Shown here piece after piece: positions 4,731 through 27,446 of a stretch of DNA of 30,385 nucleotides; the stretch's first letter is position 1, and each line of letters begins with the position of its first letter. The position numbers were made by a program, and so were the translations under genes. The notes below the pieces were generated by a model that was given only the letters and a program-made list of their open reading frames with translations, made no database searches and was not told where the DNA came from. Source of the stretch: an uncultured Acetatifactor sp. (GTDB lineage Bacteria; Bacillota; Clostridia; Lachnospirales; Lachnospiraceae); contig CAKRRD010000040.1 of the NCBI GenBank assembly GCA_934394815.1, positions 1 through 30,385 of the forward strand, in the 5' to 3' direction.

Positions 4731-5573
4731 ATGCAAAAGACATTAAAACGATATTTTCCCATTTTTGTACTGCCTACGTTGATCGCATTTTCCTTTGCAT
4801 TTATCATACCGTTTGTTATGGGCGTATATCTGTCCTTTTGCAAATTCAAGACGATCACAAATGCACAATTTGTAGGCCTGGAAAATTACATTAAAATTTT
4901 CGCGGACAAAGATTTTGTCAACGCATTCGGTTTTACCTTAAAATTTTCTGTTGTATCCATTATTACCATTAATGTGTTTGCATTTATTCTGGCACTGGCA
5001 CTGACCAGAAAAATCAGAGGAACCAACCTGTTCCGTACCGTATTCTTCATGCCGAACCTGATCGGCGGCATCATCCTGGGCTATATCTGGCAGCAGATGA
5101 TCAATGCGGTATTGTTAAAATACGAGACCACACTGGTAGCCAACCCTACCTACGGTTTCTGGGGTCTGGTCATCCTGATGAACTGGCAGATGATCGGTTA
5201 CATGATGATCATTTATGTGGCAGGCCTCCAGAATGTACCTACCGATCTGATCGAAGCAGCGCAGATTGATGGTGCAACTTCCCTGCAGACCTTATTCAAA
5301 GTGAAAATCCCGATGGTTATGCCATCTATTACCATATGTCTGTTCCTTACCGTATCCAACAGCTTCAAGCTGTTCGACCAGAACCTGGCACTGACCGCCG
5401 GTGCTCCCAGCAAAAAGACAGCTATGCTGGCTCTGGATATCTACAATACCTTCTATGGCAGAAGCGGATTTGAAGGTGTCGGTCAGGCCAAAGCAGTACT
5501 GTTCTTCATTGTAGTGGCAGTCATTGCCCTGGGACAGCTGGTACTTACCAGACGTAAGGAGGTAGAGCAATAA
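4731..5573 (+). CDS. malF: Maltodextrin ABC transporter permease, MalF-type
   Basis: Inner-membrane permease of the sugar importer, 280 residues with about six hydrophobic segments. The cytoplasmic EAA loop that docks onto the ATPase reads EAAQIDGATSLQTLFKVKIPMVMPSI in the second half; the core motif is EAA-x3-G-x9-I-x-LP-like. It is shorter than the E. coli MalF, lacking the large periplasmic P2 insertion, which is usual in Firmicutes. The start at 4731 is preceded by AGGAGAAGG. It lies 147 bases after malE across a stem-loop, and its stop codon overlaps the malG start by one base (TAATG), so the two permeases are translationally coupled. Confidence 0.92.
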   Translation: MQKTLKRYFPIFVLPTLIAFSFAFIIPFVMGVYLSFCKFKTITNAQFVGLENYIKIFADKDFVNAFGFTLKFSVVSIITINVFAFILALALTRKIRGTNLFRTVFFMPNLIGGIILGYIWQQMINAVLLKYETTLVANPTYGFWGLVILMNWQMIGYMMIIYVAGLQNVPTDLIEAAQIDGATSLQTLFKVKIPMVMPSITICLFLTVSNSFKLFDQNLALTAGAPSKKTAMLALDIYNTFYGRSGFEGVGQAKAVLFFIVVAVIALGQLVLTRRKEVEQ

Positions 5574-10204: not shown

Positions 10205-10236
10205 TTGAAATGCAGTATTTGATCGGAGGTATGGAA

Positions 10237-13200
10237 ATGGTTGATTTCAAAGGGAGAAAGGGTAAAAAACGTCTGCTGGCGCTGGTACTGGCCGGTTTGA
10301 TGGTTTTCTCCGGAACAGGAATGACTCCCCTGAGTGTGCAGGCGGAGACGGAAACGGTGCAGATGGAGAGCGCGGCACCGGAAGCCGTGGAAACGACTGA
10401 AGCAACAGAAAGTGTTGTGGAAGAAAGCACAGAGGCAGGAACCGAAGTTTCTGAGGCAGCAGCTACGACAGAGAACGCAGCTACGACAGAGAACGCAGCT
10501 ACGGCAGAGAACGCAGCTACGGCGAAGGCTGTAAAGAATGTGGAAGCTTCTGACGCAGAGAATGTGAGTGCCGGGGCAACGGAAAGCTCTGCAACGGAAT
10601 CTACGGAAAATGCAGAGACCAGTGTGCAGCCGACAGAAGAAGCTGTGAACGGTGCGGAAGCAACGGAGGCATCCGCAGAGGCAGCGCTTCTGGTGGCAGA
10701 AGAGAATACTGTGGCTGTGCAGGCGGAGGCAGGCACATATGTGCTGGAGGCGAAGGGGCTGACAGCGTTCTCGCAAGGAAAAGTCGATGGCGATAAAGAG
10801 ACAGCAGGCACGGACGACTATTTTACTATTATTTATAGTTCTAAGAGTAAAGTAGATGGTAGTAAAAAGACTTTTGATAAAGGCGGATCTAATGAATATT
10901 ACTCAGAACAGAGAATCAATTTTGGTGGAGCAGCTTCCACAAGCAAAAATGCCGTAAAATTTGAAACAAAAGCGGCTGCTGCAGTAACTGTGTGGTGGGT
11001 AGAAGCCGGAGATGATAATCGCCAGATGACTATCATTGATGAAAATGGGACAGTAGCTGATACAAGTGTGACACTTGCCAAAAATGATAGTTGTGTATCT
11101 ACATTGAAGGTTTCCAGTGCAGGAACATACTATTTGGGTGGAAAAACAAATAACAACTACATCTTCAAAGTCCAGGTAACCGAGGAATCTACAGAGCCGC
11201 TGCCGGAAGCAAAGGACATCAATGTAAATGTTACTTTGAACAATAGCAATCTGCTTGGAGCAGAAGATCATATTCTGTTAAATGAGACAGATGTAACTAA
11301 GGGTGGTACATTTGCTTTAAAATCCAATACTACATACAAGATTACAAGCAGCAATAGTGATATCAAGGCAACTGTTGATGGCAAGGACAGTGTAACTCTC
11401 GAAGATAGTACCAAAGAACTTACCATTGCACTGGAGAGCACTGTGGTATCACTGACACCGGTCATGAATGGAGAACCTTTAGAGGGGAATCAGGTAGTTG
11501 CTAAAGGCAATGGCAAAGAATATCCTTTAGTAAATGAAACTCCTGTAAAATTGCCGAAGGACGCTGAATTTACTCTGGAGGTCAGGAATGCAGAGGGCAG
11601 CATTTTAGAGACATGGTTTGCAAATGTAAATGACAAAAACAGCTTTTCTACGAAAGATTATGCAGACGGTGCAGAAGTACTTATCACTATTTCTAAGGTA
11701 AGTTCTGTAGAAATCACCCCGGAGATCAAGGGAACCGGACTTCTGGCAGAGAATACGATCACCTTTACCAATCAGAAGGATTCCACAGACACACATCAGG
11801 CAGTATCCGGATCCTCAATGGATTTAAAGGCAAAAGCAACATATGATATTACGGTAAGCTCTTCTGAACTGATTGCCATGGTTGCTGGTAAGACTTCCTA
11901 CACAACAGGAACAGATCCAGAAACCATTTCTGTTGAAGTATCTACTCCGATAACAAAGACAACGGACTGGGTGTTCAACAAAGATAATAATAAGAATAGT
12001 AAAGAGGGAATTGCAGTAGAAAATCAAGATGCCAAGCCAAATGTAGGAGAAATTCTTAAAGGTACGGCAATTTCCGGATCCACGGGTATTCTTTACTATG
12101 CTCAGGGAACTTCATCTGGCGTAAATTATGATACACAATTACGTTTCCGTGCAGGAGCTGTCTTATATCTCCCGGTGCAGGATGATACCACAAAGGTAAC
12201 CTATGTACAAACCAGTAATTCCGAAAAGATAGACAGACCTACTTATATAGGAAGTACGGAATCCGGATATTCGGTTTATATGCCGAGCGGCAGTATAAGC
12301 ATAACCGTCGGAGATGTTACGGATTATCTGGTGACAGTAGATGGACAGAAGTATCTGCCGATTATCTCCGGAGGAGATGTAAAACTGAGTGGTATCACTC
12401 TGTTGGAGTATAACCCCGTGAATGAAGTGACAGTATCCGGAACCATTAAGGATGCAGCCAAGGCAGGGGTAAAGAGCATCATCTTTAAAAATCTGGATAA
12501 TGAAAATGCAGAACTGGTAACTGCAGAGGTAAATGCCGATGGAGGTTACAGTGCTGTATTAAAGCGTGTAGACGGCGAGACACATTATGCAGCAAGTGTG
12601 GTGGCATCTGGATACAAAATCAATGATACAGACGGAGTCGATCAGTTTACTCTGACCGGAAATGGTGCAACAGCAAAGGCTGATTTCACAATCAAAGAAG
12701 CACCGACAGCGAAGGTAAGCGGCAAATTGTCTGGTGTAAGTGATGCGCTGATTAAGGGACAGCTCAGTGCAAGACTGGTGCCGGATAATGCGGCAATGTC
12801 TCCGATCGAACTGAATCTGACCAGAGTGGCAGATGGAGAATACAGTTTTGCAGAGGTAACACTGGAAATTGGAAGAGAATACACAGTAGAGCTGACCAAT
12901 GCAGATGATCTGGAAGTCCTGGATGATATCCAGTTAAGCGGAACAGAAACATCACCGCTTGAAATTCAAGCAACAGCCAAACCGGTATATGCAGTCAGCG
13001 GTAAATTCGTAACATCCGATAAGAAAAATTCGGATGTCAAAACGGTTACATTTACCAATATGGAGACCGAAGAGTATTCTTATAGCGCAGCAGTAACAGG
13101 AGATTCTTATACCATTAATCTTCGTGCAGGCAATTATGTTACCAGCGTGGAGAGTGGCAGCTATAGCGCATTCGATCATGTAGAGGTAACTGATCAGGCA

Positions 13201-16200
13201 GTAAGCAACGACGTATATCTGCAGGGAGCGGTCGATACTTCCACGGTTGCGTACAGGGAGACCGTAGAAGTAGGTGAAGGAAAAGAGTTCACCAGGATTG
13301 CGGATGCCGTATCCTATATCGCAAGAATGGATCGTAATGCCGGACAAAGGGTTACAATCAAACTGGATGCAGATAAGATTTACAGAGAACAACTGGTAAT
13401 TGATACACCGGATATTACAATTGAGGGTAACGGATCTACGATTACCTGGTATTATGGCGTAGGCTTTTCCTATTACAGTGCAAAGCTGTCAGAGGATGGC
13501 AAGAGTGCATATTATGATGAAGCATATGCTGTAGACAAGTATAATAAGCAGATGATTTCTCAGAATCCCGGACATTGGGGAGCAACTGTCAACCTTCTGA
13601 GTGGAGCAAGAGGATTTGCGGCTGAAAATCTGACCTTTGAAAACTCATTGAACAGATACCTGACAGAAGAGGAGCTTGCGGATGGTGCTGCTGAAAATGC
13701 AAGTGCAGCAATCACGGCAAGAAATACAAAGAACATCAATGTTCTGACCAAGGCAGCAAAAGAGAGAGCCTGCGTATTATATATTCAGGCAGATGACACT
13801 GAATACAAGAACTGTAAGCTGCTCAGCCGTCAGGATACCCTGTATACCGGAGATAATACAGAAAACTCTTATTTCAAAGACTGTCTGATCGAAGGTAATG
13901 TGGATTACATCTGTGGTGATGGTAATGCGGTATTTGATGGATGTACTTTAAGCATGCTTGGATATGCAGAAGGAGACAGCACAGGAGGCATTATCGTAGC
14001 CAACAAGGCGAAGGCGGATCAGGGATACCTTTTCTCCGGATGTAAGATTGTTTATTCCAACAATGCCGGTGTTAAGAAGACAACACAGAACATTCTGGTG
14101 CGTGCATGGGATGCCGGTACTGTGTACTGGATCAATACCGAAGTGGCAGATGCAGATATAATTGCAGCTAAGGCTTACAAAGATATGAACAGTAAGGCCA
14201 GCGATGCACATTATTATGAGTACAATACACATACAGCAGCCGGAGAAATTCTGGACAGCAAGAGAACACTTACAGATGATGAACAGAAGACTGTAGTTAC
14301 CATGCTGACGAAGGAAGAGGCAGATGCAGTGCAGATGACGTCCTTCTTCGGCTCCTGGGCACCGGAGTACTACGAGGGTGACCTGACGATTGAAATTGCA
14401 GAAGCAGCTTTGAAGCTGACAGCACCGGTAAAGAAAGCTGCGGTAGATAATACGGTAAGCTGTACGGCAGCAGGCGTCAGCACTTCCAAGGCAACATGGT
14501 ATGAAGGTGATAAGGCGTTCACCGGAGAAAACTTTGCAGCGGATACCGAGTATACGGCAAAGGTGACACTGACTGCAGGAAACAGATATAAATTCCAGGC
14601 AGATCTGAGTGTAACAGTGGACGGTGCTGAGACAAAGACCGTGGTAAGTAAGGATGGTAAGACAGTAGAAGTTACGATCGTATATCCTAAGACAGACGAA
14701 GATGGATACTACGAGCTGAAGCTGGAAAACGGACTGAAAGCAGGAGTGGCTTATGAAGGCGGATTCTCCGTACTTCAGGATATGGATTACAAGGCAGTTG
14801 ACGGAGGAGACCTTGTCGGTGGAGTACGTTATCCCGGATATGTTGCAGGTAAGGCGAACCCTACAACGGCAGGCGTCAACAGTAAGGGAAATATTCCTGA
14901 TGCAGGATCTGTTCTGAAAGTAGTGGCAGAGAGAGACGGCCGTCTGAAAGTTGCTGTTAAGATTAACGGTGGCAAGAATATTACCGTATATCTGGTAGAT
15001 GAAGCTACCGGAACAGCAGTTGATAAGCATACCAATGAAGGTTCTGCCAGTGAGAAGGTAGCATTGACCTTTAATCTGACAGCAGGCCATACATATTACT
15101 TATACGGAAATGGTACCAAGCTTCCTCTGTATTCTGTTGTAGCAGATTACAGAAAGCCGGTGGCATGGGACAAGATCGCAGCTCCTGAACTGGGTACTCC
15201 TGTGGCAGATAACAAGACCGGTACAATCACAGTACCATATACTGCACAGGTAGGCGGAAGAAATGCAGATTCCATTGAGGTAAGAATGTTACAGGATGGT
15301 AAGGTAGTAAGTACTGTTTCAAGCACGGTGGAAGGTGACAGCGGCGAAGTAGTATTTGAGCCGGCTGCAAGCGGAAACTATTCTTTCCAGGCTGCACTGA
15401 AACGTACAGACTGCGAAGATAAAATGAGCAGGGAAACAGAAAATGTGGCATTTGTACTTCCGATGAAACAACCTGTTATTATTGGAGTAGAGAATCTCGG
15501 AAACGGTGCGGCAAAGTTCAGCTGGAAAGAAGTACCCGAAGCAGATGGTTACAAGGTATATCTGGATGGTGTATTACAGGCAACTGTGACCACGCTTTCT
15601 TATAAGTTCAAAGGATTGACGGTAGGTCAGAAATATGAGTTTGGAGTTGAGGCGGTCAGAGGACAGGATATAGATGTATCTTCCAGAGCCACTGTAGAAC
15701 AGACAATTACGGCAGAAGCCAGAAAATTGTGGAATTATGCAGCATTTGGCTCCGGTACGGATACCATGTCAGAGAATGGTAAAAATAATGGCTACAGCGG
15801 AAATCTTGAAGATGGTACCCTGAAACTGTGGAGCCTGAACAGTAAGGGTAAGCTGGTACCGGCATCTACCGATGGACTGGCATATTATTATACCGTGATG
15901 GATGCAGAGACAGAGAACTTTACTCTGACAGCAGATATTACCGTAGATTCCTGGACATTTACCAATGGACAGGAAGGCTTTGGACTGATGGCAGCCGACA
16001 GCGTAGGCGAGAATGGAGATTCCAGTGTGTTCTGGAACAACTCTTATATGGTAAGTGCTACGAAAGTCGAGTATCTGTGGGACGCAGCGGAAGGAAAGAT
16101 ATCTGATTCCGGAGATAAGTATACCATGAAGCTTGGTGTAGGCTCTCAGGAGAAGATCGGTGTAACTCCGGAAGCAGTAGCAGCAGATACCGCTGTTAAG

Positions 16201-18990
16201 GTTCTCAGCAGTAAAATGACAACATTGGATATCAGTGCCCCTTCTGGCGGTAACGGAGCAGGTACCTATAATCTGGTTGGCGGATATACCAATGCGGTAT
16301 TGAAAGATATTACAGATTTGAATACACAGACAACTTTCCGGATGACAATCCAGAGAAACAATACGGGTTACTTCTTAAGTTACACGAATCTGGCAACCGG
16401 AGAGACAACCATGAACAAGTATTATCACGGGGATGACTGTGATGAACTGACCAGATTGGATAAGGAGAATATCTATGTCGGTTTCTTCGCCTCCAGAAGT
16501 GCCAGAATCAGCGTAAGCAATGTAAATCTTACAACGATTGATCCCGTCAGGGATGCACCGGCAGAAGAAAGACCTGTAACTTATGTAACGCCGAATTATA
16601 CCATCGAATCTTCCAAGTCGGCAAACAGCGAAAATTATCAGATGGTGTATTATGGAAATGCAACCGGTACACTGACAATTACAAACAGTGAAGGAGTGGT
16701 AATTGTTGATGCACAGAAGGTAGAGGCAAATACCAAATTCCGGGTGGATACCACTCTGAAGAAGGGAGCAAACACTTTCAAAGTAGAATTTACTCCGGAT
16801 GCGGATTATCAGCCTTCCAAGTATGAGCGTTTAAGCAGCTATGATACAGTAACATTTGAGTTTACCGTTGATTATACGGTAATCGACAGCAGAAATATTT
16901 TTGTAAGTCCTTCCGGCAGCAGCGCAGGCGCAGGAACCAGACAGGATCCTGTAGATATCTATACTGCTGTAAAGAAAGCGGCACCGGGACAGAAGATTGT
17001 TCTGATGGAAGGAACTTATACACTGGAGAAAACAGTTGTAGTAGACCGCGGAATCAACGGAACCGCAGAAGCGAGAATTTATATGATTGCGGATCCCAAG
17101 GCATCCACCAGACCGGTTCTGGATTTCCAGGAAAAATGCGCAGGCATGATCCTGGCCGGTGATTACTGGTATTTCCAGGGATTTGATGTGACACGTTCTG
17201 CAAATGCACAGAAGGGTATTCAGGTATCCGGAAGCCATAATATTCTGGACAATCTGAAGGCTTATAAGAATGGTAATACAGGTGTACAGATCAGCCGTTA
17301 TAAGAGCACTGACAGTTGGGAAGACTGGCCTTCTGATAACCTGATCCTGAATTGTAGTTCTTATTTGAATGCAGATGCAGGATATGAGGATGCAGATGGA
17401 TTTGCAGCAAAACTTACCATCGCAGATGGAAATGTATTTGATGGCTGTATTGCAGCTTACAATGCAGATGACGGTTGGGATCTGTTTGCAAAGGTAGAGA
17501 GCGGTACGATCGGACAGGTAACGATCCGTAATAGTGTGGCATTTAAGAATGGTTATATTATCGGAGATAATGGAGAAGAGATCGACGCAGGTAATGGTAA
17601 TGGTTTCAAGATGGGCGGCTCCAGCATGAGCGGACATCACAGACTGGAGAACAGTGTAGCATTTGGTAATAAGGCAAAGGGCATTGACTCCAACAGTTGT
17701 CCGGATATTCAGGTATATAACTCAACCACTTACAACAATGAATCCTTTAACGTTGCATTTTATACCAACGATGCAAAGGAAACAGCATTTATGGCAAAGG
17801 GTATCCTGTCCTTCAAGGATAGTCAGAATGCGGCAGAAAGTCTGGTAGCAGAACAGTTCAAGACAAAGGGTGCGCAGGTAGAAAGTGATTATCTCAATGA
17901 AATGAATTATTACTGGATGGGAGAAAAATCTGTTAATACAGAAGGAACAGAGGCTACAGCTTCCTGGTTCCGCAATACGGATATGCAGAGTGCTATCAAT
18001 GGCGGCATCTACCGTAATGCAGATGGAACCATCAATATGAATGGCTTCCTGGAGGTGACTTCTGTAGTGCCCGAGGGAGTAGGAGCCAGAATGACGGGTA
18101 CGGCATCCGGCGTTATTATCGTGGACGAAGAGAGCGATAACAATGGCACAACAAACGGTGGCTCTGATAACAGTAGCGATGGCACAACAAACGGTGGCTC
18201 TGATAACAGCAGTGATGGCACAACAAACGGTGGTTCTGATAACAGCAGCGATGGCGGAAGCGGTGACAGCAGTGTGAATACTGTGAACTGGGATGATGTT
18301 AAGCTTTCTGTACAGAATAAACTGGTAGAACTGGTGCAAAATCCTAAGATTGTCGGTGTCAACATGAATTTTGTATGTAGTGGAGAGGTTAAAGTACCGG
18401 CATCCATAGTACAGGCAATCAAAGGAACCAATATAACGATTGCATTCCACAGCGGAAACGGCGTGGCACTGAGCATCAGTGGTCAGGATCTGAAGAACAG
18501 AGATTTGTCCAAACTTCAGAATATTGATCTGACGGTAACACAGAACAGCGATGTCATTCCTGCAAACGTGGTAGCTGCCAAGGGCGGAAAAGTAAACAGA
18601 CAGTTTACCATCAGAGACACCGGCAGTTTCGGTGTACCTGTGAACCTTCATGTAAATGTGGGCAAGGAAAATGCAGGCAAGAGCGCTAACCTGTATCGCT
18701 ACAATGCAGAAAAAGGACGTCTGGAGTACTGCGGCTCCTTCACGGTAACTTCCAACGGACAGTCCATGTTTGCAGTATATCGCGGAGGCAGCTATCTGGT
18801 AACGGTAACCGATCGCAGACCTTCCGAGAGTATCTGGTATGCCGGCGGCGATTACACCGTTAAGGCAGGTGATACCCTTTCCAAGATTGCAAAGAGAAAT
18901 CATATGAGTCTGACAGAACTGCTTCGCAGAAATGCACAAATCACCAACCGGGATCTGATCAGAGTCGGCCAGAAGCTGAATCTGAACTAA
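10237..18990 (+). CDS. Giant secreted pectin methylesterase (CE8)-pectate lyase (PL9) with LysM
   Basis: A cell-surface pectin degrader of 2917 residues. A signal peptide (1-36, cut after VQA) precedes an Ala/Thr/Glu-rich linker (37-165). Beta-rich modules follow, including two related repeats starting near 323 and 489 and three carboxypeptidase-regulatory/CNA-B-like modules (730-1000). The CE8 pectin methylesterase (1003-1378) has QDTLY with Asp1200, VDYICG with Asp1223 and Arg1289 in VRAW. Next come Ig-like modules, an FN3 (about 1742-1822), a lectin-like module (about 1830-2105) and the PL9 lyase (2217-2607). PL9 calcium ligands map to Asp2387, Asp2411, Asp2412 and Asp2415, with Lys2458 the probable base. 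A Gly/Ser/Asn linker and a beta domain lead to LysM (2873-2917), which should hold the protein on peptidoglycan. The esterase makes demethylated pectin that the lyase can cut. The start at 10237 has GGAGGT six bases upstream. The frame is intact throughout. Confidence 0.93.
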   Translation: MVDFKGRKGKKRLLALVLAGLMVFSGTGMTPLSVQAETETVQMESAAPEAVETTEATESVVEESTEAGTEVSEAAATTENAATTENAATAENAATAKAVKNVEASDAENVSAGATESSATESTENAETSVQPTEEAVNGAEATEASAEAALLVAEENTVAVQAEAGTYVLEAKGLTAFSQGKVDGDKETAGTDDYFTIIYSSKSKVDGSKKTFDKGGSNEYYSEQRINFGGAASTSKNAVKFETKAAAAVTVWWVEAGDDNRQMTIIDENGTVADTSVTLAKNDSCVSTLKVSSAGTYYLGGKTNNNYIFKVQVTEESTEPLPEAKDINVNVTLNNSNLLGAEDHILLNETDVTKGGTFALKSNTTYKITSSNSDIKATVDGKDSVTLEDSTKELTIALESTVVSLTPVMNGEPLEGNQVVAKGNGKEYPLVNETPVKLPKDAEFTLEVRNAEGSILETWFANVNDKNSFSTKDYADGAEVLITISKVSSVEITPEIKGTGLLAENTITFTNQKDSTDTHQAVSGSSMDLKAKATYDITVSSSELIAMVAGKTSYTTGTDPETISVEVSTPITKTTDWVFNKDNNKNSKEGIAVENQDAKPNVGEILKGTAISGSTGILYYAQGTSSGVNYDTQLRFRAGAVLYLPVQDDTTKVTYVQTSNSEKIDRPTYIGSTESGYSVYMPSGSISITVGDVTDYLVTVDGQKYLPIISGGDVKLSGITLLEYNPVNEVTVSGTIKDAAKAGVKSIIFKNLDNENAELVTAEVNADGGYSAVLKRVDGETHYAASVVASGYKINDTDGVDQFTLTGNGATAKADFTIKEAPTAKVSGKLSGVSDALIKGQLSARLVPDNAAMSPIELNLTRVADGEYSFAEVTLEIGREYTVELTNADDLEVLDDIQLSGTETSPLEIQATAKPVYAVSGKFVTSDKKNSDVKTVTFTNMETEEYSYSAAVTGDSYTINLRAGNYVTSVESGSYSAFDHVEVTDQAVSNDVYLQGAVDTSTVAYRETVEVGEGKEFTRIADAVSYIARMDRNAGQRVTIKLDADKIYREQLVIDTPDITIEGNGSTITWYYGVGFSYYSAKLSEDGKSAYYDEAYAVDKYNKQMISQNPGHWGATVNLLSGARGFAAENLTFENSLNRYLTEEELADGAAENASAAITARNTKNINVLTKAAKERACVLYIQADDTEYKNCKLLSRQDTLYTGDNTENSYFKDCLIEGNVDYICGDGNAVFDGCTLSMLGYAEGDSTGGIIVANKAKADQGYLFSGCKIVYSNNAGVKKTTQNILVRAWDAGTVYWINTEVADADIIAAKAYKDMNSKASDAHYYEYNTHTAAGEILDSKRTLTDDEQKTVVTMLTKEEADAVQMTSFFGSWAPEYYEGDLTIEIAEAALKLTAPVKKAAVDNTVSCTAAGVSTSKATWYEGDKAFTGENFAADTEYTAKVTLTAGNRYKFQADLSVTVDGAETKTVVSKDGKTVEVTIVYPKTDEDGYYELKLENGLKAGVAYEGGFSVLQDMDYKAVDGGDLVGGVRYPGYVAGKANPTTAGVNSKGNIPDAGSVLKVVAERDGRLKVAVKINGGKNITVYLVDEATGTAVDKHTNEGSASEKVALTFNLTAGHTYYLYGNGTKLPLYSVVADYRKPVAWDKIAAPELGTPVADNKTGTITVPYTAQVGGRNADSIEVRMLQDGKVVSTVSSTVEGDSGEVVFEPAASGNYSFQAALKRTDCEDKMSRETENVAFVLPMKQPVIIGVENLGNGAAKFSWKEVPEADGYKVYLDGVLQATVTTLSYKFKGLTVGQKYEFGVEAVRGQDIDVSSRATVEQTITAEARKLWNYAAFGSGTDTMSENGKNNGYSGNLEDGTLKLWSLNSKGKLVPASTDGLAYYYTVMDAETENFTLTADITVDSWTFTNGQEGFGLMAADSVGENGDSSVFWNNSYMVSATKVEYLWDAAEGKISDSGDKYTMKLGVGSQEKIGVTPEAVAADTAVKVLSSKMTTLDISAPSGGNGAGTYNLVGGYTNAVLKDITDLNTQTTFRMTIQRNNTGYFLSYTNLATGETTMNKYYHGDDCDELTRLDKENIYVGFFASRSARISVSNVNLTTIDPVRDAPAEERPVTYVTPNYTIESSKSANSENYQMVYYGNATGTLTITNSEGVVIVDAQKVEANTKFRVDTTLKKGANTFKVEFTPDADYQPSKYERLSSYDTVTFEFTVDYTVIDSRNIFVSPSGSSAGAGTRQDPVDIYTAVKKAAPGQKIVLMEGTYTLEKTVVVDRGINGTAEARIYMIADPKASTRPVLDFQEKCAGMILAGDYWYFQGFDVTRSANAQKGIQVSGSHNILDNLKAYKNGNTGVQISRYKSTDSWEDWPSDNLILNCSSYLNADAGYEDADGFAAKLTIADGNVFDGCIAAYNADDGWDLFAKVESGTIGQVTIRNSVAFKNGYIIGDNGEEIDAGNGNGFKMGGSSMSGHHRLENSVAFGNKAKGIDSNSCPDIQVYNSTTYNNESFNVAFYTNDAKETAFMAKGILSFKDSQNAAESLVAEQFKTKGAQVESDYLNEMNYYWMGEKSVNTEGTEATASWFRNTDMQSAINGGIYRNADGTINMNGFLEVTSVVPEGVGARMTGTASGVIIVDEESDNNGTTNGGSDNSSDGTTNGGSDNSSDGTTNGGSDNSSDGGSGDSSVNTVNWDDVKLSVQNKLVELVQNPKIVGVNMNFVCSGEVKVPASIVQAIKGTNITIAFHSGNGVALSISGQDLKNRDLSKLQNIDLTVTQNSDVIPANVVAAKGGKVNRQFTIRDTGSFGVPVNLHVNVGKENAGKSANLYRYNAEKGRLEYCGSFTVTSNGQSMFAVYRGGSYLVTVTDRRPSESIWYAGGDYTVKAGDTLSKIAKRNHMSLTELLRRNAQITNRDLIRVGQKLNLN
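10462..10515 (+). repeat. Three 18-bp in-frame repeats in the N-terminal linker
   Basis: The unit GCTACGACAGAGAACGCA occurs three times in tandem (10462, 10480, 10498), with one base change in the last. It encodes ATTENA, ATTENA, ATAENA just after the signal peptide. Such repeats expand and contract by slippage without breaking the frame. Confidence 0.85.
18145..18252 (+). repeat. Three 36-bp in-frame repeats in the C-terminal linker
   Basis: Near-perfect 36-bp units start at 18145, 18181 and 18217, each encoding GTTNGGSDNSSD. They form a flexible hydrophilic linker between the PL9 lyase and the wall-binding end. Differences are silent third-position changes (for example AGT/AGC). Confidence 0.9.
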
Positions 18991-20263: not shown

Positions 20264-21217
20264 ATGAAAAAGGTATTTTTTGCAGCGGTAATTGCCGGAG
20301 TATTGCTGGGATTTGCGTCCTGTGGGAACCGGGAGACGGCGGCTGGTCCGGAGACGGAGACCGTTATAGACAGTATCGGGGAGACCCGGGACAGTCAGGC
20401 GACAGAAGAGACGGCAGCCGGAGTGACGGAGGCCGTGGAACTGCCCACACAGGCGGAAACAGCAGAAAGCCAAAGCAGTACACAGGAAAGTGATCAGGTA
20501 CGGTTTGCCGTGGAAGACCATGACGGCAGCAGTGCCCCCGGGGATAAGACAAGGGATTATAAGTATTCTTACCAGACGGTCGAGATTACAATTCCGGGGA
20601 ATGCGGCGGTACAGGAGAAGATTCAGAAGGATCTGGATAAATATGTAGACGATTTTGTGGAAGGAATTCAGGCCGGAGATCTTGGCACTCTCTATGAGGA
20701 TATGACTGTATATGAGCAAAGCTATGAGGATCTTACTTTTCACGTAATTCGTGCGGATGATAAGGTGATCAGTCTTGCGTGGGGAATTGAAGGTTATAAT
20801 CAGGGAGCCCATGGATGGTATACGTTGTACTATATGAACTATTATACGCAGACCGGGGAGAAAATTACTTTTGAAAGTCTGGGAAGCGGATTCCGCGACA
20901 AAGCACTGGGACTGGTGACAGCCGCAGCGGCGGAAAGGCAGGCAAAAGAGGACTGCTTTTTTAATGATTATGAAAAGAGCATAAAACTGGTGGTGCTGGA
21001 CGGTACGGAAGACCTGGATCCTATCTATCAGGAAATCTACGGAGCGGATATTGCGGGTGCGGACAATGGTGTAGCAACACCGACTTTCAGCATTACGGAG
21101 GATGGATTTGTATTCGAATCCGGTCAGTATGTATTACAGTCCTACGCCGTCGGAATCGTTGATTTCGAGATTCCGGCAGAGGATTTCGGGGATGCCCTGA
21201 CGGCAGATATTTTTTAG
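20264..21217 (+). CDS. DUF3298/RsiV-like lipoprotein
   Basis: Secreted lipoprotein of 317 residues with unknown function. The signal peptide ends in FASC, giving an acylated Cys20. An acidic Thr/Glu/Ala-rich tether follows (about 21-85). The rest is a DUF4163/DUF3298-type domain as found in RsiV and PdaC. Visible hallmarks are an early strand KYSYQTVEITIPG, the central NQGAHGWYTLYYMNYYTQTGEKITFESL, and the closing DGFVFESGQYVLQSYAVGIVDFEIP. RsiV binds lysozyme and controls a sigma factor, but this protein is a lipoprotein with no cytoplasmic anti-sigma domain, so that role does not carry over. The start at 20264 follows GGAGGTGAGG. A possible -10 TATACT is at 20238, without a good -35. Confidence 0.8.
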   Translation: MKKVFFAAVIAGVLLGFASCGNRETAAGPETETVIDSIGETRDSQATEETAAGVTEAVELPTQAETAESQSSTQESDQVRFAVEDHDGSSAPGDKTRDYKYSYQTVEITIPGNAAVQEKIQKDLDKYVDDFVEGIQAGDLGTLYEDMTVYEQSYEDLTFHVIRADDKVISLAWGIEGYNQGAHGWYTLYYMNYYTQTGEKITFESLGSGFRDKALGLVTAAAAERQAKEDCFFNDYEKSIKLVVLDGTEDLDPIYQEIYGADIAGADNGVATPTFSITEDGFVFESGQYVLQSYAVGIVDFEIPAEDFGDALTADIF

Positions 21218-21300
21218 AAAATCGCGGGCCTGACGGATGAGAAGATTTGTGCAGGAAAGGACTTTACACGGGCTGACACTGTGTATATAATAAGAACATT

Positions 21301-21384
21301 GGGAATGAGGTTCTCCCGGAAGCGTAAGCTTCGAACCGCCGGAATTGGAACATACGAATTCGATTTGGCTGATGACTTCTGCAG
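21301..21384 (+). promoter_or_regulatory. Fluoride (crcB-type) riboswitch aptamer
   Basis: The conserved fluoride-riboswitch blocks appear in order: GGGAATGAGGTTCTCCC (21301-21317), GAACCGCC (21333-21340) and GGCTGATGACTTCTGC (21367-21382). Stem one is GGGA/TCCC and stem two includes GCC/GGC. The pseudoknot GAGGUU (21307-21312) pairs with GACUUC (21374-21379) with two G-U wobbles. Between the first two blocks a perfect extra hairpin carries a GNRA tetraloop, GAAGC-GUAA-GCUUC (21319-21332). The aptamer lies upstream of a cation/proton antiporter, a gene class known to be fluoride-regulated. The identification comes from remembered consensus; a covariance-model search against the crcB RNA family would confirm it. 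Confidence 0.93.
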
Positions 21385-21410
21385 AATATGCAGGGGACAC
21401 CAGCCTTTTT
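21367..21410 (+). terminator. Riboswitch expression platform: terminator overlapping the aptamer
   Basis: GGCTG (21367-21371) pairs with CAGCC (21401-21405), immediately followed by TTTTT. Inside, CTTCTGC (21376-21382) pairs with GCAGGGG (21390-21396). The left arm consists of the last conserved aptamer block, so aptamer and terminator are mutually exclusive. Fluoride binding should therefore prevent termination and turn the antiporter gene on. Confidence 0.85.
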
Positions 21411-21454
21411 GTTGGAATGAAAAAGTCCTGCTGCGACAAAACGGAGGAATTTTT

Positions 21455-22660
21455 ATGCTTACATCATTGGGACTGATTTTTTTATTGGGACTGCTTATGG
21501 CGGCGATCTGCCAGAAGATCCATCTGCCCCGCATCATTGGATTGCTGCTTACAGGTATCATTCTGGGGCCTTATGTGCTGAATTTGTTGGATGTGTCGAT
21601 CCTGAATATCTCATCGGAACTGCGGCAGATCGCGTTGATTATTATTTTGCTGAAGGCCGGGTTGTCGCTGGATCTGAAGGATCTGAAAAAAGTGGGGCGC
21701 TCCGCAGTCATGTTATCCTGTGTTCCGGCGACTTGTGAGCTGCTGGCTTTTGTGGTATTTGCACCGATGATTCTCAATATCAGCCGGGTGGATGCGGCGG
21801 TCATGGGAGCAGTTCTGGCAGCAGTGTCCCCGGCGGTGGTGGTGCCGCGGATGGTACATCTCATGGAGACGGGCTACGGTACGGAGAAAAGCATTCCGCA
21901 GATGATCCTGGCGGGAGCCTCCTGCGATGACATTTATGTCATAGTGCTGTTTTCCACTTTCGTCGGGATGGCGCAGGGTGGCCAGGTCAATGCGCTGGAT
22001 TTCGTGAATATTCCGGTATCGATCCTGACCGGCGTGCTGTTCGGCACACTGGTGGGATGGCTGTTGGGACAGCTGTTTGAACTGTTGTACCGGAAGGGCA
22101 GTTATGTGCGTAACAGCATGAAAGTCATTATCATCATGGGGTTATCCTTCTTGTTAATGGCTTTGGAAACGCTGTTAAAGGGAATGGTGGCCTTTTCCGG
22201 TCTGCTTGCGGTAGTGAGCATGGCCTGCGCGTTGAAAATACGGGCACCGAGGGAGGTCACCGGCAGATTGTCCGCCAAGTTTGGAAAGCTGTGGCTGGCG
22301 GCAGAGGTGGTGCTGTTCGTGCTGGTGGGCGCAGCGGTGGATATCCGCTATACCATGGAAGCCGGACCGGCAGCGGTAGCAATGATCCTGTTGGCACTGG
22401 TGTTCCGCTCCATCGGTGTGGCACTGTGTATGCTGGGAACGGATCTCAATAAGAAGGAGAGGCTGTTCTGCATGATCGCCTATCTGCCGAAGGCTACGGT
22501 ACAGGCCGCCATCGGCTCTGTGCCGTTAGCGATGGGACTGCCCTGCGGCAAGATTGTCCTGTCCGTGGCAGTGCTGGCGATCCTTATTACGGCACCATTG
22601 GGCGCGCTGGGAATGGATGCCACATACCGGAAGCTGCTGGAATGTAATTCACTGCAATAA
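21455..22660 (+). CDS. Cation/proton antiporter (CPA family), fluoride-regulated
   Basis: Integral membrane antiporter of 401 residues with about 11-12 hydrophobic segments. The paired acidic residues Asp158-Asp159 in ASCDDIYV sit in the middle of a membrane segment, the position of the ion-binding pair in CPA Na+/H+ exchangers. A second family block reads GAVLAAVSPAVVVPRM. There is no C-terminal RCK/TrkA domain, unlike KefB/KefC. The start at 21455 follows GGAGG at seven bases; an upstream extension would run through the riboswitch. The riboswitch indicates a role when fluoride is present, either moving fluoride-linked ions or restoring pH after HF entry. The transported ion is not readable. 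No crcB or fluoride CLC gene is in this window. Confidence 0.88.
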   Translation: MLTSLGLIFLLGLLMAAICQKIHLPRIIGLLLTGIILGPYVLNLLDVSILNISSELRQIALIIILLKAGLSLDLKDLKKVGRSAVMLSCVPATCELLAFVVFAPMILNISRVDAAVMGAVLAAVSPAVVVPRMVHLMETGYGTEKSIPQMILAGASCDDIYVIVLFSTFVGMAQGGQVNALDFVNIPVSILTGVLFGTLVGWLLGQLFELLYRKGSYVRNSMKVIIIMGLSFLLMALETLLKGMVAFSGLLAVVSMACALKIRAPREVTGRLSAKFGKLWLAAEVVLFVLVGAAVDIRYTMEAGPAAVAMILLALVFRSIGVALCMLGTDLNKKERLFCMIAYLPKATVQAAIGSVPLAMGLPCGKIVLSVAVLAILITAPLGALGMDATYRKLLECNSLQ

Positions 22661-22713: not shown

Positions 22714-23325
22714 ATGGCACTGGAAAACAAATTGGGAATTTCTGATTCGGCGGAACTTGCCCGCGAAGAGGAAAAAATAAGCAAACAAAAAGCGGCATGG
22801 CTGTTTGAAAGTGGAACACTGGATACCCTGCCTGCGGGAACTTTTGCGGCTCTGCAGATAATCCACAAGTACCTCTTTGAAGATATTTATGAATTCGCCG
22901 GGAAGATACGCACTGTGAATCTGGCAAAGGGCAGTTTTCGTTTTGCCCCGGTAATGTATCTGGAAGCGGCGCTTGCAAATATTGACAAGATGCCGCAATC
23001 CACGTTTGATGAGATCATCGAGAAATATGTGGAGATGAACATAGCACATCCGTTTCGCGAGGGCAATGGGCGCAGTACTCGCATCTGGCTGGATCTTATG
23101 TTAAAAAGCGGTATCGGACAGGTGGTGGACTGGAGTCTGGTGGACAAGGAGGATTATCTTCTGGCAATGGAGAGAAGCCCTATCCGGGACACGGAGATCA
23201 AGGTGCTGCTGAAAGCGGCGTTGACCACGGAGATCAACAGCCGGGAGATTTATATGAAAGGGATCGACCATAGTTATTATTATGAAGGTTATATTACTTT
23301 TAAGACGGAAGATCTGAGAAAATAA
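22714..23325 (+). CDS. Fic-domain AMP-transferase with C-terminal inhibitory motif (class III)
   Basis: Fic enzyme of 203 residues, probably transferring AMP from ATP to a protein hydroxyl. The catalytic loop HPFREGNGRSTR begins with His112 and matches the HxFx(D/E)GNGRxxR consensus fully, so it should be active. Near the C terminus SYYYEG (187-192) matches the inhibitory (S/T)xxxE(G/N) motif, with Glu191 the residue that blocks productive ATP binding. An inhibitory helix at the C-terminal end of a single-domain protein defines class III, as in Neisseria NmFic, where oligomerisation tunes activity. No separate antitoxin is encoded beside it, consistent with self-inhibition. The start at 22714 follows GGAGGA; an upstream ATG frame from 22690 has no site. 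The target is unknown; gyrase/topoisomerase IV is known for some relatives. Confidence 0.92.
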   Translation: MALENKLGISDSAELAREEEKISKQKAAWLFESGTLDTLPAGTFAALQIIHKYLFEDIYEFAGKIRTVNLAKGSFRFAPVMYLEAALANIDKMPQSTFDEIIEKYVEMNIAHPFREGNGRSTRIWLDLMLKSGIGQVVDWSLVDKEDYLLAMERSPIRDTEIKVLLKAALTTEINSREIYMKGIDHSYYYEGYITFKTEDLRK

Positions 23326-23331
23326 TACCAT

Positions 23332-23360
23332 TTGACATTGAGAACCATTTTCGATAAAAT
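23332..23360 (+). promoter_or_regulatory. Strong promoter with a Fur-box-like spacer
   Basis: TTGACA (23332-23337, perfect) and TAAAAT (23355-23360, five of six) are exactly 17 bases apart. The spacer holds TGAGAACCATTTTCG (23339-23353), which matches the 7-1-7 Fur core TGATAATnATTATCA at 10 of 14 positions. Repression by Fur with iron is therefore plausible. It drives the ABC exporter operon, or else a very short RNA ended by the hairpin at 23362-23405. Confidence 0.7.
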
Positions 23361-23361
23361 G

Positions 23362-23405
23362 ACCGTGCGGGCAGTTAGAAGTTACTAACTCCTGCACGGT
23401 TTTAT
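23362..23405 (+). terminator. Terminator after fic, overlapping the next operon's start site
   Basis: ACCGTGCGGGCAGTTAG (23362-23378) pairs with CTAACTCCTGCACGGT (23385-23400) with small imperfections, followed by TTTTATTTT. It ends the Fic transcript. The stem begins two bases after the -10 of the promoter at 23332-23360, so transcripts of the ABC operon would start within its left arm. The stretch 23406-23503 contains a possible ATGGG/CCCAT hairpin and nothing else I recognise. Confidence 0.85.
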
Positions 23406-23503
23406 TTTAACAATAAATCAGAGATGGGTTGGCGATGAATCCTAAGGCCCATGCCTGCGGGAAGGTCCGGGATATTTTATAAGAGAAAAGGATGGAAATA
23501 CCT

Positions 23504-25339
23504 ATGATGATCAACAAAAGACTGATCGGCATTGTGCCGGAGAGCCGGAAGTACATTGCGGGAAATGTGGCCTTGCAATGGCTGTCACTGGTGGCCAATA
23601 TGGTGATGATGACGGCGATTGCGACACTATTGTCGGCTTTGTATTTTTACAGGGAAATGAGCACACTGTTTTCCGGTGCGGTTGTGGCGATGCTGGCAGC
23701 ACTCCTAGTGCGTTTTGGCTGTGCCATCGGGGCATCGAAAATGAGTTACCTCTCTTCCAAAGAGGTGAAGAAGACGCTGCGCAGACGGATCTATGAGAAG
23801 CTTCTGCGTCTGGGTGCTTCTTATCAGGAGCAGACGACGACCTCCGAAGTGGTACAGGTGGCTGTGGAAGGTGTGGATCAGCTGGAGACGTATTTTGGCG
23901 CGTATCTGCCCCAGTTTTTCTATGCCATGCTGGCGCCCCTGACGCTGTTTATTTATCTGTGCTTTATCAATGTGCCTTCGGCAGTGGTGCTCCTGATCTG
24001 CGTGCCCCTGATCCCGGTGGCCATCGCGGCCGTACAGACCTGGGCGAAAAGGCTGCTGGCGAAATACTGGGGACAGTACACGGCGCTGGGAGATACTTTT
24101 CTGGAAAATCTGCAGGGACTGACCACTTTGAAGATCTATCAGTCCGATGCCTATAAAAATGAAGAAATGAATGCGGAATCGGAGAAATTCCGCAAGATCA
24201 CCATGAAGGTGCTGATCATGCAGCTGAATTCCATTACCATCATGGATTTCATCGCCTATGGCGGTGCGGCGCTGGGAATCATCCTCTCCGTCAGTCAGAT
24301 GCGGGCGGGAAAAGTAGATCTGGCCGGATGCCTGCTGATCATTTTACTGGCAGCGGACTTTTTTATCCCCATGCGGCAGCTGGGCTCCTTTTTCCACATT
24401 GCCATGAACGGTATGGCGGCCAGCGAGAAGATCTTCCGGCTGTTGGATCTGCCGGAGCGGGAGGATGGTGGTGAGACTGCGGCAAATGCGGATAACTTTG
24501 AGGCATCGGTCGCAACAACGGGAGAAGCAACCATGACGAAGAACGGGAAAATGATGCAGAACGTACTGTTTCCCACAGAGGGTGATATCTGTCTGGAACA
24601 GGTGCATTTTGCCTATGAAGCGGACCGGGAGATCCTCCACGGTGTGGATCTGGTGCTGCGCAGGGGCAGACTGACAGCCATCGTGGGAGAGAGCGGCTGT
24701 GGAAAATCCACCATTTCCGGCATCCTCATGGGCAGAAACGGTGGATATACCGGCACGGTACGGGTCGGCACTGTGGATATGCGTCAGATTCCGGAGGTGA
24801 GCCGGATGCAGAATATCACCTATGTCAGTCACCAGAGTTATCTGTTCCGCGGAACCGTCCGGGAGAATCTGTGCATGGGACGACCGGAGGCTACGGAGGA
24901 GGAACTGTGGCAGGTGCTGGAAAAGGTGCGTCTGGCGGATTTCCTGCGGAGTGAACAGGGACTGGAGACTCCGGTGCAGGAGAAGGGAAGCAATTTCTCC
25001 GGGGGCCAGTGTCAACGGCTGGCACTGGCGAGAGCACTTCTGCATGACAGTCCGGTCTATATTTTCGATGAAGCGACTTCCAATATTGATGTGGAGAGTG
25101 AGAATGATATCATGGCGCTGATCCGGGAACTGGCAGCCACCGGGGAAAAGACGATTCTGCTGATCTCCCACCGGCTGGCGAATGTGGTGGAAGCGGACCG
25201 AATCTATGTCATGGATGCCGGAATTGTGACGGAACAGGGAACACAGGAAGAACTGCTGGCGAAGAACGGAACCTACGCGAGATTATGGAATGCCCAGCAG
25301 AGTCTGGAGAATTACGGAAAAAGAGGTGCGCAGGCATGA
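23504..25339 (+). CDS. ABC transporter ATP-binding/permease subunit A (CydD-like)
   Basis: Half-transporter of about 611 residues. An N-terminal six-helix exporter-type membrane domain (about 15-310) precedes a polar spacer and an ATPase domain (about 360-600). Walker A GESGCGKST is at 395-403, the signature reads FSGGQ, Walker B ends YIFDEATSNID with the catalytic Glu present, and the H-loop is ISHR. It is half of a heterodimer with the next gene, overlapping it by four bases (ATGA). The pair resembles CydDC-type and siderophore-type heterodimers; the cargo is not readable. The Fur-like promoter hints at iron, and the YgbA gene downstream at redox or nitrosative stress. Start choice is uncertain between 23492, 23504 and 23507, as none has an ideal ribosome binding site. 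Confidence 0.85.
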   Translation: MMINKRLIGIVPESRKYIAGNVALQWLSLVANMVMMTAIATLLSALYFYREMSTLFSGAVVAMLAALLVRFGCAIGASKMSYLSSKEVKKTLRRRIYEKLLRLGASYQEQTTTSEVVQVAVEGVDQLETYFGAYLPQFFYAMLAPLTLFIYLCFINVPSAVVLLICVPLIPVAIAAVQTWAKRLLAKYWGQYTALGDTFLENLQGLTTLKIYQSDAYKNEEMNAESEKFRKITMKVLIMQLNSITIMDFIAYGGAALGIILSVSQMRAGKVDLAGCLLIILLAADFFIPMRQLGSFFHIAMNGMAASEKIFRLLDLPEREDGGETAANADNFEASVATTGEATMTKNGKMMQNVLFPTEGDICLEQVHFAYEADREILHGVDLVLRRGRLTAIVGESGCGKSTISGILMGRNGGYTGTVRVGTVDMRQIPEVSRMQNITYVSHQSYLFRGTVRENLCMGRPEATEEELWQVLEKVRLADFLRSEQGLETPVQEKGSNFSGGQCQRLALARALLHDSPVYIFDEATSNIDVESENDIMALIRELAATGEKTILLISHRLANVVEADRIYVMDAGIVTEQGTQEELLAKNGTYARLWNAQQSLENYGKRGAQA

Positions 25340-27084
25340 CGGACACAAAGACGATGCAGCAAAATCAAAACGAAAAACTGTCGGTGAAAAAGCGCAGCGG
25401 CTTCCGGGTCATGGCGGAACTGATCGGACTGGTGAAACCGCTGTCCGGATATATGTGCCTGGCCATTTTCGCAGGACTTCTGGGACATCTGTGCGCCGCC
25501 TTTATTACGATACTGGGCGGCTATGCGGTGCTGGCGGTACTGGGGGTGCAGGATAAAATCACGCCGCTGCAGGTATTTATCACGGTGCCGTTTCTGGCAC
25601 TTTTGCGGGCGGGGCTTCGCTATGGGGAGCAGTCCTGCAACCATTTTATTGCCTTTAAATTATTGGCGTTGATCCGGGACAAGGTATTCCGGGCATTGCG
25701 CAGGCTGTGTCCGGCGAAGCTGGAAGGCAGAGGCAAGGGAGACCTGATTGCGGTAATCACCTCGGATATTGAACTGCTGGAGGTATTTTACGCGCATACC
25801 ATTTCTCCGGCGGCCATTGCATTTCTGTTTATCCTGATCCTGTGCGGATTCATTGGCAGCTTCCATCCGGCGCTGGGACTGCTGGCGCTGGCGGCTTATG
25901 TAATGGTGGGTGTGCTGGTGCCGCTTATCATTTCGAAGGCCAGCGGGGATCACGGCATCCGCTTCCGCAGCGGATCGGGAGATTTGTCCGGTTACGTGCT
26001 GGACAGCCTGCGGGGACTGACGGAGACCATTCAGTACGGCCAGGGACAGGCGAGACTGGACGGCATGATGGCGAAGACGGATGTACTGAGCGGTGAAGAA
26101 GAGAAAATGAAGGCGATCTCCGGACGGAATACGGCGATTACCAATACGGTGATCCTGCTGTTTGATCTGGCGATGCTGTGTACCTCCGTGGCGCTGTACC
26201 GAAATGGTGCGGTCGGTTATGAAGGTGTAGTGATTCCGACGGTGGCACTGATGAGTTCCTTCGGCCCCTGTGTGGCACTGGCGGCGCTTGGCAGCACTTT
26301 ACAGAATACATTCGCGGCGGGGAACCGGGTGTTAGATATTCTGGAGGAAGAACCGGCGGTGGAGGAGATCACCGGGAGACCGGAGATCGCTTTTACCGGA
26401 GCTGCGGCGGAGCATGTGACCTTTTCTTATGAGGCAAAGGCAGCAGACCCGGCAAATGTTGGTGCCGGGATGGCACAGAACAATATTCTGACAGATGTGT
26501 CGGTAGAAATTCCGGAACATTCCGTCATCGGCATCACCGGCAGAAGCGGCAGCGGTAAATCCACCCTTTTGAAGCTGTTGATGCGGTTCTGGACGGTACC
26601 GCAGGGAGAGGTGAAACTGTCCGGTACTTCCGTGGAGGAGATCAATACGGCGAACCTCCGGGCAATGGAAAGCTTCGTGACCCAGGAGACCCATCTGTTC
26701 CACGACAGCATCCGTAATAATCTCCGGATTGCCAAGCTGGATGCCACGGAGGAAGAGATGATCGCCGCCTGCAAAAAGGCATCCGTGCATGATTTTATTA
26801 TGACACTGCCACAGGGATATGACACACCTGTCGGAGAATTGGGAGACACCTTATCCGGTGGAGAGAGACAGCGGATCGGTCTGGCGAGAGCCTTTCTGCA
26901 CGATGCACCGTTCCTGCTGCTGGATGAGCCCACGAGTAATCTGGACAGCCTGAACGAAGCGGTGATCTTAAAATCCCTCAGGGAAGAAAAAGAGGACAAG
27001 ACCGTCGTGCTGGTGTCCCACAGAGAATCCACCATGCGCATTGCAGATAGGAGTTATTCCGTAGAAAACGGGAGGATGAGCTGA
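25336..27084 (+). CDS. ABC transporter ATP-binding/permease subunit B (CydC-like)
   Basis: Second half-transporter, 582 residues. A six-helix membrane domain (about 30-325) is followed by an ATPase domain with Walker A GRSGSGKST (402-410), signature LSGGERQR, Walker B LLLDEPTSNLD and H-loop VSHR. Both subunits keep the catalytic glutamate, so both ATP sites could be active, unlike many heterodimeric exporters with one degenerate site. The start at 25336 sits in an ATGA overlap with the upstream gene, with AGAGGTG before it. Its stop overlaps the next start (TGATG). The three genes are thus translationally coupled. Confidence 0.88.
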   Translation: MTDTKTMQQNQNEKLSVKKRSGFRVMAELIGLVKPLSGYMCLAIFAGLLGHLCAAFITILGGYAVLAVLGVQDKITPLQVFITVPFLALLRAGLRYGEQSCNHFIAFKLLALIRDKVFRALRRLCPAKLEGRGKGDLIAVITSDIELLEVFYAHTISPAAIAFLFILILCGFIGSFHPALGLLALAAYVMVGVLVPLIISKASGDHGIRFRSGSGDLSGYVLDSLRGLTETIQYGQGQARLDGMMAKTDVLSGEEEKMKAISGRNTAITNTVILLFDLAMLCTSVALYRNGAVGYEGVVIPTVALMSSFGPCVALAALGSTLQNTFAAGNRVLDILEEEPAVEEITGRPEIAFTGAAAEHVTFSYEAKAADPANVGAGMAQNNILTDVSVEIPEHSVIGITGRSGSGKSTLLKLLMRFWTVPQGEVKLSGTSVEEINTANLRAMESFVTQETHLFHDSIRNNLRIAKLDATEEEMIAACKKASVHDFIMTLPQGYDTPVGELGDTLSGGERQRIGLARAFLHDAPFLLLDEPTSNLDSLNEAVILKSLREEKEDKTVVLVSHRESTMRIADRSYSVENGRMS

Positions 27085-27446
27085 TGAATGTAAATCAGAT
27101 TCAGGATAAACGGGAGCGGGAGAAGGAGATGGTCTCCGACATGATCCTGCTCTACTGTCAGAAACAACACAAATCTATACGAAAAGCATCCGGGCTTAAG
27201 AAAACAGACCTCTGCCCGGAATGCGCCGAACTGGAAGACTACGCCCGCATGCGCAGCGACAAATGCCCTTTCATGGAGACCAAGACCTTCTGCTCCAACT
27301 GCAAGGTCCACTGCTACAAGCCCGACATGCGGGAGCGCATCCGCACCGTCATGCGCTTCTCCGGCCCAAGGATGCTGCTCGTCCACCCTGCGGCCGCCAT
27401 CCGGCATGTGATCGAGTCCCGGAAGGAAGCCGCGAAAAACCGATAA
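27084..27446 (+). CDS. ygbA: YgbA-type nitrous oxide-stimulated promoter family protein
   Basis: Small cytoplasmic protein of 120 residues matching the YgbA_NO family. In E. coli and Salmonella, ygbA is induced by nitric oxide through NsrR and helps recovery from nitrosative stress; its biochemical activity is unsettled. The seven cysteines are Cys25, 44, 47, 61, 70, 73 and 77, arranged as CPEC, CPF and CSNCKVHC. A metal or Fe-S site, or thiol chemistry, would fit that arrangement. GGAGGATG inside the ABC gene is its ribosome binding site and the start overlaps that stop codon by one base. Its codons end in C far more often than those of the ABC genes, suggesting a different origin. Coupling to an exporter pair points to a shared stress regulon. 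Confidence 0.85.
   Translation: MNVNQIQDKREREKEMVSDMILLYCQKQHKSIRKASGLKKTDLCPECAELEDYARMRSDKCPFMETKTFCSNCKVHCYKPDMRERIRTVMRFSGPRMLLVHPAAAIRHVIESRKEAAKNR

Follow-up and report, generated by a model that had tools for sequence, protein, structure and literature searches.

The window, the whole 30,385-nt stretch of DNA that was analysed, carries a fluoride riboswitch aptamer (crcB motif) behind a sigma-70 type promoter, an intrinsic terminator that overlaps the aptamer, and a gene for an NHA-type cation/proton antiporter. The features are given below; percentages are the paired cells of each element in 36 aligned sequences.

21263..21291, + strand: sigma-70 type promoter, TTTACA-17-TATAAT, 11 of 12 consensus positions, abutting the 5′ side of the aptamer
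21292..21388, + strand: fluoride riboswitch aptamer (crcB motif), RF01734
21301..21317, + strand: P1 stem-loop (98.6%)
21307..21312, + strand: pseudoknot 5′ strand GAGGTT, in the P1 loop, with six allowed pairs to GACTTC at 21374-21379
21319..21332, + strand: GTAA-capped (GNRA) hairpin between P1 and the AACCGCC block, from the sequence
21338..21369, + strand: P3, GCC at 21338-21340 with GGC at 21367-21369, three allowed pairs (98.1%)
21374..21379, + strand: pseudoknot 3′ strand GACTTC, common to the terminator (97.2%)
21367..21410, + strand: intrinsic terminator with its stem at 21367-21405 and a T run at 21406-21410; the aptamer 3′ strand forms the left arm
21455..22660, + strand: NHA-type cation/proton antiporter, 401 aa, the first gene 3′ of the riboswitch, with GGAGG before the ATG (by eye)

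Aptamer and competing terminator

An Rfam scan of the whole window returned the fluoride family as the sole match above a gathering threshold (RF01734 at 21292-21388, forward strand; 41.4 bits against 34, E 2.2e-8, model matched over its full length), and a permissive Rfam scan of 21200-21460 gave nothing besides this family. An earlier note on this DNA had proposed a fluoride aptamer with its conserved blocks and a six-pair pseudoknot, together with a covariance-model search as a check; the score proved significant, and the pseudoknot lies at 21307-21312 and 21374-21379. Its sixth pair is a U-G wobble in 33 of the 36 sequences, and one P3 pair has 12 cells changed on both sides in the same set. 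The span given earlier, from 21301, begins nine bases into the Rfam match and lacks the promoter at 21263-21291. Since that promoter ends at 21291, transcription would be expected to begin at the aptamer's 5′ boundary. Boxes resembling TTTACA and TATAAT were seen by eye ahead of the aptamers of several relatives; promoter-like sites in the scanned region numbered two, against 1.4 expected by chance.

With respect to the GNRA-capped hairpin, which had been put forward as a further variation, its presence is clear but its special status is not upheld: aligned relatives also have a hairpin-like stretch there, though a shorter one (by eye), so that the hairpin in the window is a longer version of the usual element, and ordinary. 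Folded alone, the aptamer gave a z-score of -0.13 against shuffled sequences, in a fold that leaves out pseudoknots, and the terminator stem, which contains internal mismatches, was absent from the list of a simple terminator scan. Neither this miss nor the aptamer z-score outweighs the score of the covariance model.

The block GGCTGATGACTTCTGC occupies 21367-21382, and CAGCC at 21401-21405 is followed by five T at 21406-21410. Folding the 129-nt leader yielded 15 terminator pairs at -39 kcal/mol (z -2.67), with 1 of 200 shuffles as good. The terminator shares 21367-21383 with P3 and the pseudoknot, and the two folds exclude each other. Both were assessed in 36 leaders, the window and 35 relatives chosen by a simple sequence pattern, from which L014 (a repeat of L008) and linked loci such as L004, L024 and L057 are missing. 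The terminator is paired in 89.6% of 527 cells, with 5 of its 15 pairs changed on both sides and two that are frequently unpaired (in 23 of 36 and 11 of 34 sequences); for the aptamer, paired cells amount to 97.9%, and both sides have changed in 4 of 13 pairs. Slid controls, over which the tested structures have the advantage of deriving from the window's own folds, reached at most 53.7% for the terminator and 69.0% for the aptamer. This covariation supports two incompatible folds, which argues that both are maintained, as a transcription switch requires.

A transcription-terminating switch turned on by fluoride is thus predicted. Fold and covariation in the 36 leaders bear out the earlier reading of the aptamer 3′ strand as the left arm of a terminator ending in CAGCC-TTTTT, and the expectation that fluoride turns expression on was the right prediction, with aptamer and competing terminator both confirmed computationally. 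This reuse of a strand had, however, been overrated, as it appears as the standard mechanism in passages of PMC2864571 and PMC11077080, the former having reported in 2010 that terminators overlap the aptamer in crcB RNAs. The crcB riboswitch of Bacillus cereus has the same aptamer, the same six-pair pseudoknot strand serving as the terminator base and the same ON logic (PMC11077080). That switch controls crcB, whereas the one in the window controls an antiporter and has longer inserts (hairpin and P3 loop).

We regard it as very improbable that the riboswitch is degenerate or unresponsive to fluoride here. Its 41.4 bits do fall in the lower part of the range for antiporter-linked aptamers in the 196-genome sample described below (35.9 to 59.3 bits), its aptamer contains long inserts, and a close relative, L007, is without the whole element; nevertheless, the Rfam cut-off is passed over the full model, both folds can form, and a nearly identical RNA is kept in L001. 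The latter locus belongs to the nearest relative, Lachnospiraceae bacterium GAM79 (L001/G001, titled a complete genome), whose antiporter is 94% identical and whose genome has one riboswitch match, at the antiporter.

An antiporter with an NHA2-like cation site

The product of the controlled gene matches PF00999 over residues 12-381 (148.1 bits, cut-off 26.2), in agreement with its earlier designation as a CPA-type antiporter. This is its sole Pfam match; PF02537 and the CLC domain (PF00654) are absent, and the protein is accordingly neither Fluc/CrcB nor CLC-F. The companion claim that the window holds no other fluoride exporter also stands, in that no CrcB or CLC domain occurs among the 19 window ORFs scanned with Pfam, a set that leaves out shorter or overlapping ORFs. 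None of the four NCBIfam matches of the antiporter reaches its own cut-off, and assignment to the PRK05326-type K+/H+ antiporters (NF003716) was rejected at 67.6 bits against a cut-off of 355.

By sequence, the closest solved relatives are two chains of NHA2/SLC9B2 (E 2.6e-38 and 1.5e-37). Foldseek, applied to a predicted model with a mean pLDDT of 83.8, placed human NHA2 first by E-value (TM 0.81, 31% identity); archaeal NhaP structures, at TM 0.80-0.85 and 19-24% identity, fit equally well or better by TM-score. The antiporter therefore has the animal protein NHA2 (SLC9B2) as its best PDB sequence match and shares its cation-site residues, but it is bacterial, lacks the region of NHA2 that lies N-terminal to chain residue 132, has Tyr for Trp457, and is under the control of a fluoride riboswitch.

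In terms of the ion site, E95, D158, D159, R318 and T348 of the antiporter align with E215, D278, D279, R432 and T462 of the NHA2 chain (bison NHA2 residue numbers in PMC8850199 are lower by one than the chain numbers used here). Letters are present at these positions in 64, 65, 65, 66 and 66, respectively, of 66 alignment rows, which count the window's own row and at least two duplicate rows, and each residue is invariant there. The five residues are likewise invariant in alignment A2 (35 rows, leaving out L024, L048, L056 and L059), and in rows with and without a linked riboswitch. The conserved Trp of the NHA2 salt-bridge network is not kept: Tyr343 aligns with Trp457, and Tyr is found in 65 of the 66 rows. 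NHA2 is an electroneutral Na+/H+ exchanger whose exchange depends on this ion site (PMC8850199). Because that site is kept, and because NHA2 itself is electroneutral, one-for-one exchange would be expected, and the sequence suggests that the antiporter most likely trades a monovalent cation (Na+ or Li+) for H+.

Riboswitch linkage and known exporters among relatives

Related antiporters were collected at 62 loci, of which 59 were placed (the partial L060-L062 were left out). In 39 of the 59, a riboswitch on the same strand precedes the antiporter by 41-328 nt, and the other 20 have no above-cut-off riboswitch at the antiporter. In a sample of 196 genomes from the order to which the nearest relative belongs, scanned with filters that lose weak matches, 50 above-cut-off fluoride riboswitches were found in 46 genomes. 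Thirty-six of these precede a member of the antiporter clade by 37-545 nt, 3 precede crcB, and 11 are near neither, 4 of the last group preceding CLC-F by hand comparison. The antiporter is thus the main fluoride-riboswitch target in this sample. The cut-off for the clade was chosen with the score gap already known, the lowest full-length member being at 217 bits, one fragment at 109 and the next match at 60.8. Linked above-cut-off riboswitches are absent from 28 of the 63 antiporter genomes (one of the 28 has a 32.2-bit match), so some clade members may serve another purpose.

With respect to gene partners, no downstream gene family occurs in more than 3 of 37 linked loci over the 2.5 kb searched. 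The candidate seen in three loci, ABC-transporter ATPase-like by eye, was set aside as chance, being on the opposite strand in two of them. Carriage on plasmids was also discarded, there being no near match in PLSDB.

Several loci depart from the usual arrangement. At L007, roughly 30 bases (4940-4969) take the place of the 209 bases (21216-21424) that hold the promoter, riboswitch and terminator in the window; the antiporter there is 94% identical, and its gene closely follows an upstream lipoprotein-like gene. If the MAG is correct, L007 would be a natural unswitched version. At L036, L041 and L045, inspection by eye shows either a leader of which just the 3′ part survives or an aptamer with a damaged 5′ part; the L041 genome has a riboswitch match there at 33.9 bits, just under the cut-off, and those of L036 and L045 have none there. 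Decay of the switches or assembly faults would account for this. L004 carries, at 514-704, two tandem terminator-like repeats with GCTRATGACTT ahead of the antiporter (by eye) and one Rfam hit. In L195 (G159), three fluoride riboswitches fall within 1.7 kb, one before crcB and another before an ORF resembling a MutS-type ATPase (by eye); linkage of the fluoride riboswitch to mutS has been reported (PMC2864571).

The pairing itself belongs to a published class. Na+/H+ antiporters are the next-most common class linked to the riboswitch after the exporters (PMC11139923, citing Baker 2012), and this class has, as in the window, a riboswitch ahead of a Na+/H+ antiporter (Baker 2012 via PMC11139923). 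An antiporter under a fluoride riboswitch, as described by the earlier note, is therefore confirmed, but its novelty was overrated. The passages of PMC11139923 on the class name no subfamily, describe no pattern of replacement and assign no role other than pH homeostasis. Clostridioides difficile CD0656-0657 likewise combines a fluoride riboswitch with an NhaP-type antiporter in an operon (PMC11477304). There the CLC gene comes first, whereas in the window the antiporter directly follows the riboswitch, and the nearest relative is without a CLC match. As the operon is described in that source, the C. difficile antiporter would sit beside an exporter and not instead of one, which would count against replacement if that antiporter belonged to the present clade. 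Neither the switch nor the antiporter linkage is new in kind; the part worth following is the replacement pattern, and among the matches listed (open PMC; titles and abstract beginnings) there was no report of an NHA-type antiporter replacing Fluc or CLC-F.

Statements on exporters rest on the genomes of relatives and not on the window's own genome. CrcB was found in none of 50 genomes of antiporter relatives (50 of 62 searched), and the same search found it in 10 of 14 control genomes. CLC matches above cut-off occur in 26 of the 50, one with CLC-F motifs, in Fibrobacterales G050 (locus L050), which thus combines an antiporter relative with CLC-F and is without a riboswitch match. The L001 genome has no CrcB or CLC match. 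Among the 196 genomes, the antiporter clade is present in 63 and CrcB in 23, with no genome holding both (expected 7.4; hypergeometric P 6.8e-5, kinship ignored). CLC matches occur in 77 of the 196 and the GREGV and GEVTP motifs of CLC-F in 11, typed by the motifs of PMC11139923, so that fragments or CLCs without the GREG motif could hide further CLC-F. CrcB or CLC-F is present in 34 of the 196, and the overlap with the antiporter is a single genome, G246, which has CLC-F (expected 10.9; P 8.6e-6, kinship ignored); avoidance of CLC-F alone is not significant (P 0.08). A second order (197 genomes), inventoried for the antiporter and CrcB with CLC-F untyped, gave 36 and 16 genomes, respectively, and none with both (expected 2.9; P 0.034, kinship ignored).

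Kinship was modelled on RpoB trees (single gene, FastTree, midpoint rooted). The first comprised 76 of the 96 genomes with a transporter, 16 having been left out and 4 more having no RpoB match. Transporter state changes 18 times on this tree, against a mean of 29.3 for shuffled labels (lowest of 500, 23); the states are thus clumped by kinship, yet have changed repeatedly. As a test of avoidance this tree was rejected, since a set restricted to genomes that carry at least one transporter yields a negative association by construction, and for that reason 40 transporter-less genomes were added to give a tree of 116 (46 of the 100 such genomes were searched for RpoB, 43 matched and 40 were fetched). 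Proportionate subsamples were compared with independent evolution on this larger tree. Over 20 subsamples, which reuse the same 40 transporter-less genomes and are therefore not independent, the median P was 0.010 when known exporters were simulated and 0.035 when the antiporter was simulated, with P < 0.05 in 19 and 14 of the 20, respectively. With kinship modelled, avoidance of known exporters by the antiporter is thus of moderate strength. This avoidance, seen in two samples, is a computed observation, as are the aptamer, the competing folds, the gene family, the recurrent linkage and the conserved cation site.

In light of these data, we consider it likely that the locus is a fluoride-ON riboswitch switching a single antiporter gene, and that the antiporter stands in for Fluc or CLC-F in this lineage. 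A different account, which we view as rather unlikely, would make the antiporter an agent of ordinary pH or sodium homeostasis, accessory to fluoride stress, with the lack of exporters reflecting lineage history and little fluoride met. All three transporters (CrcB, CLC-F and the NHA-type antiporter) are absent from 100 of the 196 genomes, so that lacking a known exporter is common in the order, and pH homeostasis is the explanation that the review offers for riboswitch-linked antiporters (PMC11139923). The clumping on the RpoB tree and kinship-aware medians of only 0.010 and 0.035 are also in keeping with such an account. On the other hand, the states do change 18 times among the 76 genomes, and overlap between antiporter and CrcB is zero in two orders. 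The figure of 100 in 196, part of which may be explained by incomplete assemblies, contrasts with the presence of exporters in over 85% of GEBA strains (PMC11139923).

Possible routes to fluoride tolerance

We infer the response to fluoride, the ion exchanged, its direction and the resulting protection as follows. Without fluoride, the terminator would take the aptamer 3′ strand (21367-21383), and transcription would end at the T run. Binding of Mg-fluoride would let P3 and the pseudoknot retain that strand, and the polymerase would continue into the antiporter gene. Fluoride enters as HF, and its trapping in the cell scales with the pH gradient; accumulation in cells without an exporter has been reported to track that gradient (PMC11077948). 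Given such entry and trapping, an induced exchanger could act in either of two ways: it could remove the incoming acid load, or, running in reverse, it could flatten the pH gradient so that fluoride would exit as HF. Which direction prevails would depend on the sodium gradient of the host.

Export of fluoride by the antiporter clade itself, as F- alone or with H+ or Na+, would make it a third bacterial export family beside the two, Fluc and CLC-F, named in a review (PMC11139923). We judge this to be decidedly unlikely, although the antiporter is the main riboswitch target (36 of 50 in the 196-genome sample) and avoids CrcB and CLC-F much as those two avoid each other, being found together in about 3% of strains (PMC11139923); EriC/CLC-F, moreover, was also misannotated until its riboswitch link was understood (PMC7266159). 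Against direct export stands the NHA2-type cation site, invariant at all five residues in the examined rows. With this site intact, Na+/H+ exchange that alters the pH gradient is likelier than direct transport of fluoride.

Replacement of Fluc or CLC-F by a cation/proton exchanger is thus the reading that we prefer for this lineage. As the sampled relatives with the antiporter rarely have a known exporter, the antiporter may be their fluoride protection. The earlier note suggested a fluoride-tolerance protein that has been less studied, an idea strengthened by the recurrence of the pair in many species and by the avoidance of CrcB and CLC-F in the sampled genomes. More broadly, NHA2-type antiporters might have replaced Fluc and CLC-F as the principal fluoride-tolerance transporter in many Clostridia, lowering fluoride in the cytoplasm either through the pH gradient or by carrying fluoride, a proposal that we offer as possible but short of probable.

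Were an antiporter of another fold to do the work of the exporters in many Clostridia, a further fluoride defence system would have to be counted, and roughly one in three genomes of the sampled order (63 of 196) would acquire a candidate defence. Fluoride tolerance would then be attained through cation/proton exchange and, if the pH-gradient reading holds, fluoride would be excluded without being moved. Fluoride would also be a physiological signal for bacterial relatives of human NHA2. Should the proposal be wrong, what the window contains is an ordinary example of a regulatory class already in print.

As to the surrounding DNA, genes for a Fic protein, a CydD/CydC-like ABC pair and a YgbA_NO protein lie at 22714-27446, between the antiporter and a GH94 gene. 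In L001 and L007, DNA matching the GH94 end of the window is found within about 250 bases after the antiporter. On the other side of the riboswitch, an ORF of 2926 residues at 10210-18990 encodes a pectinesterase domain and a C-terminal LysM domain.
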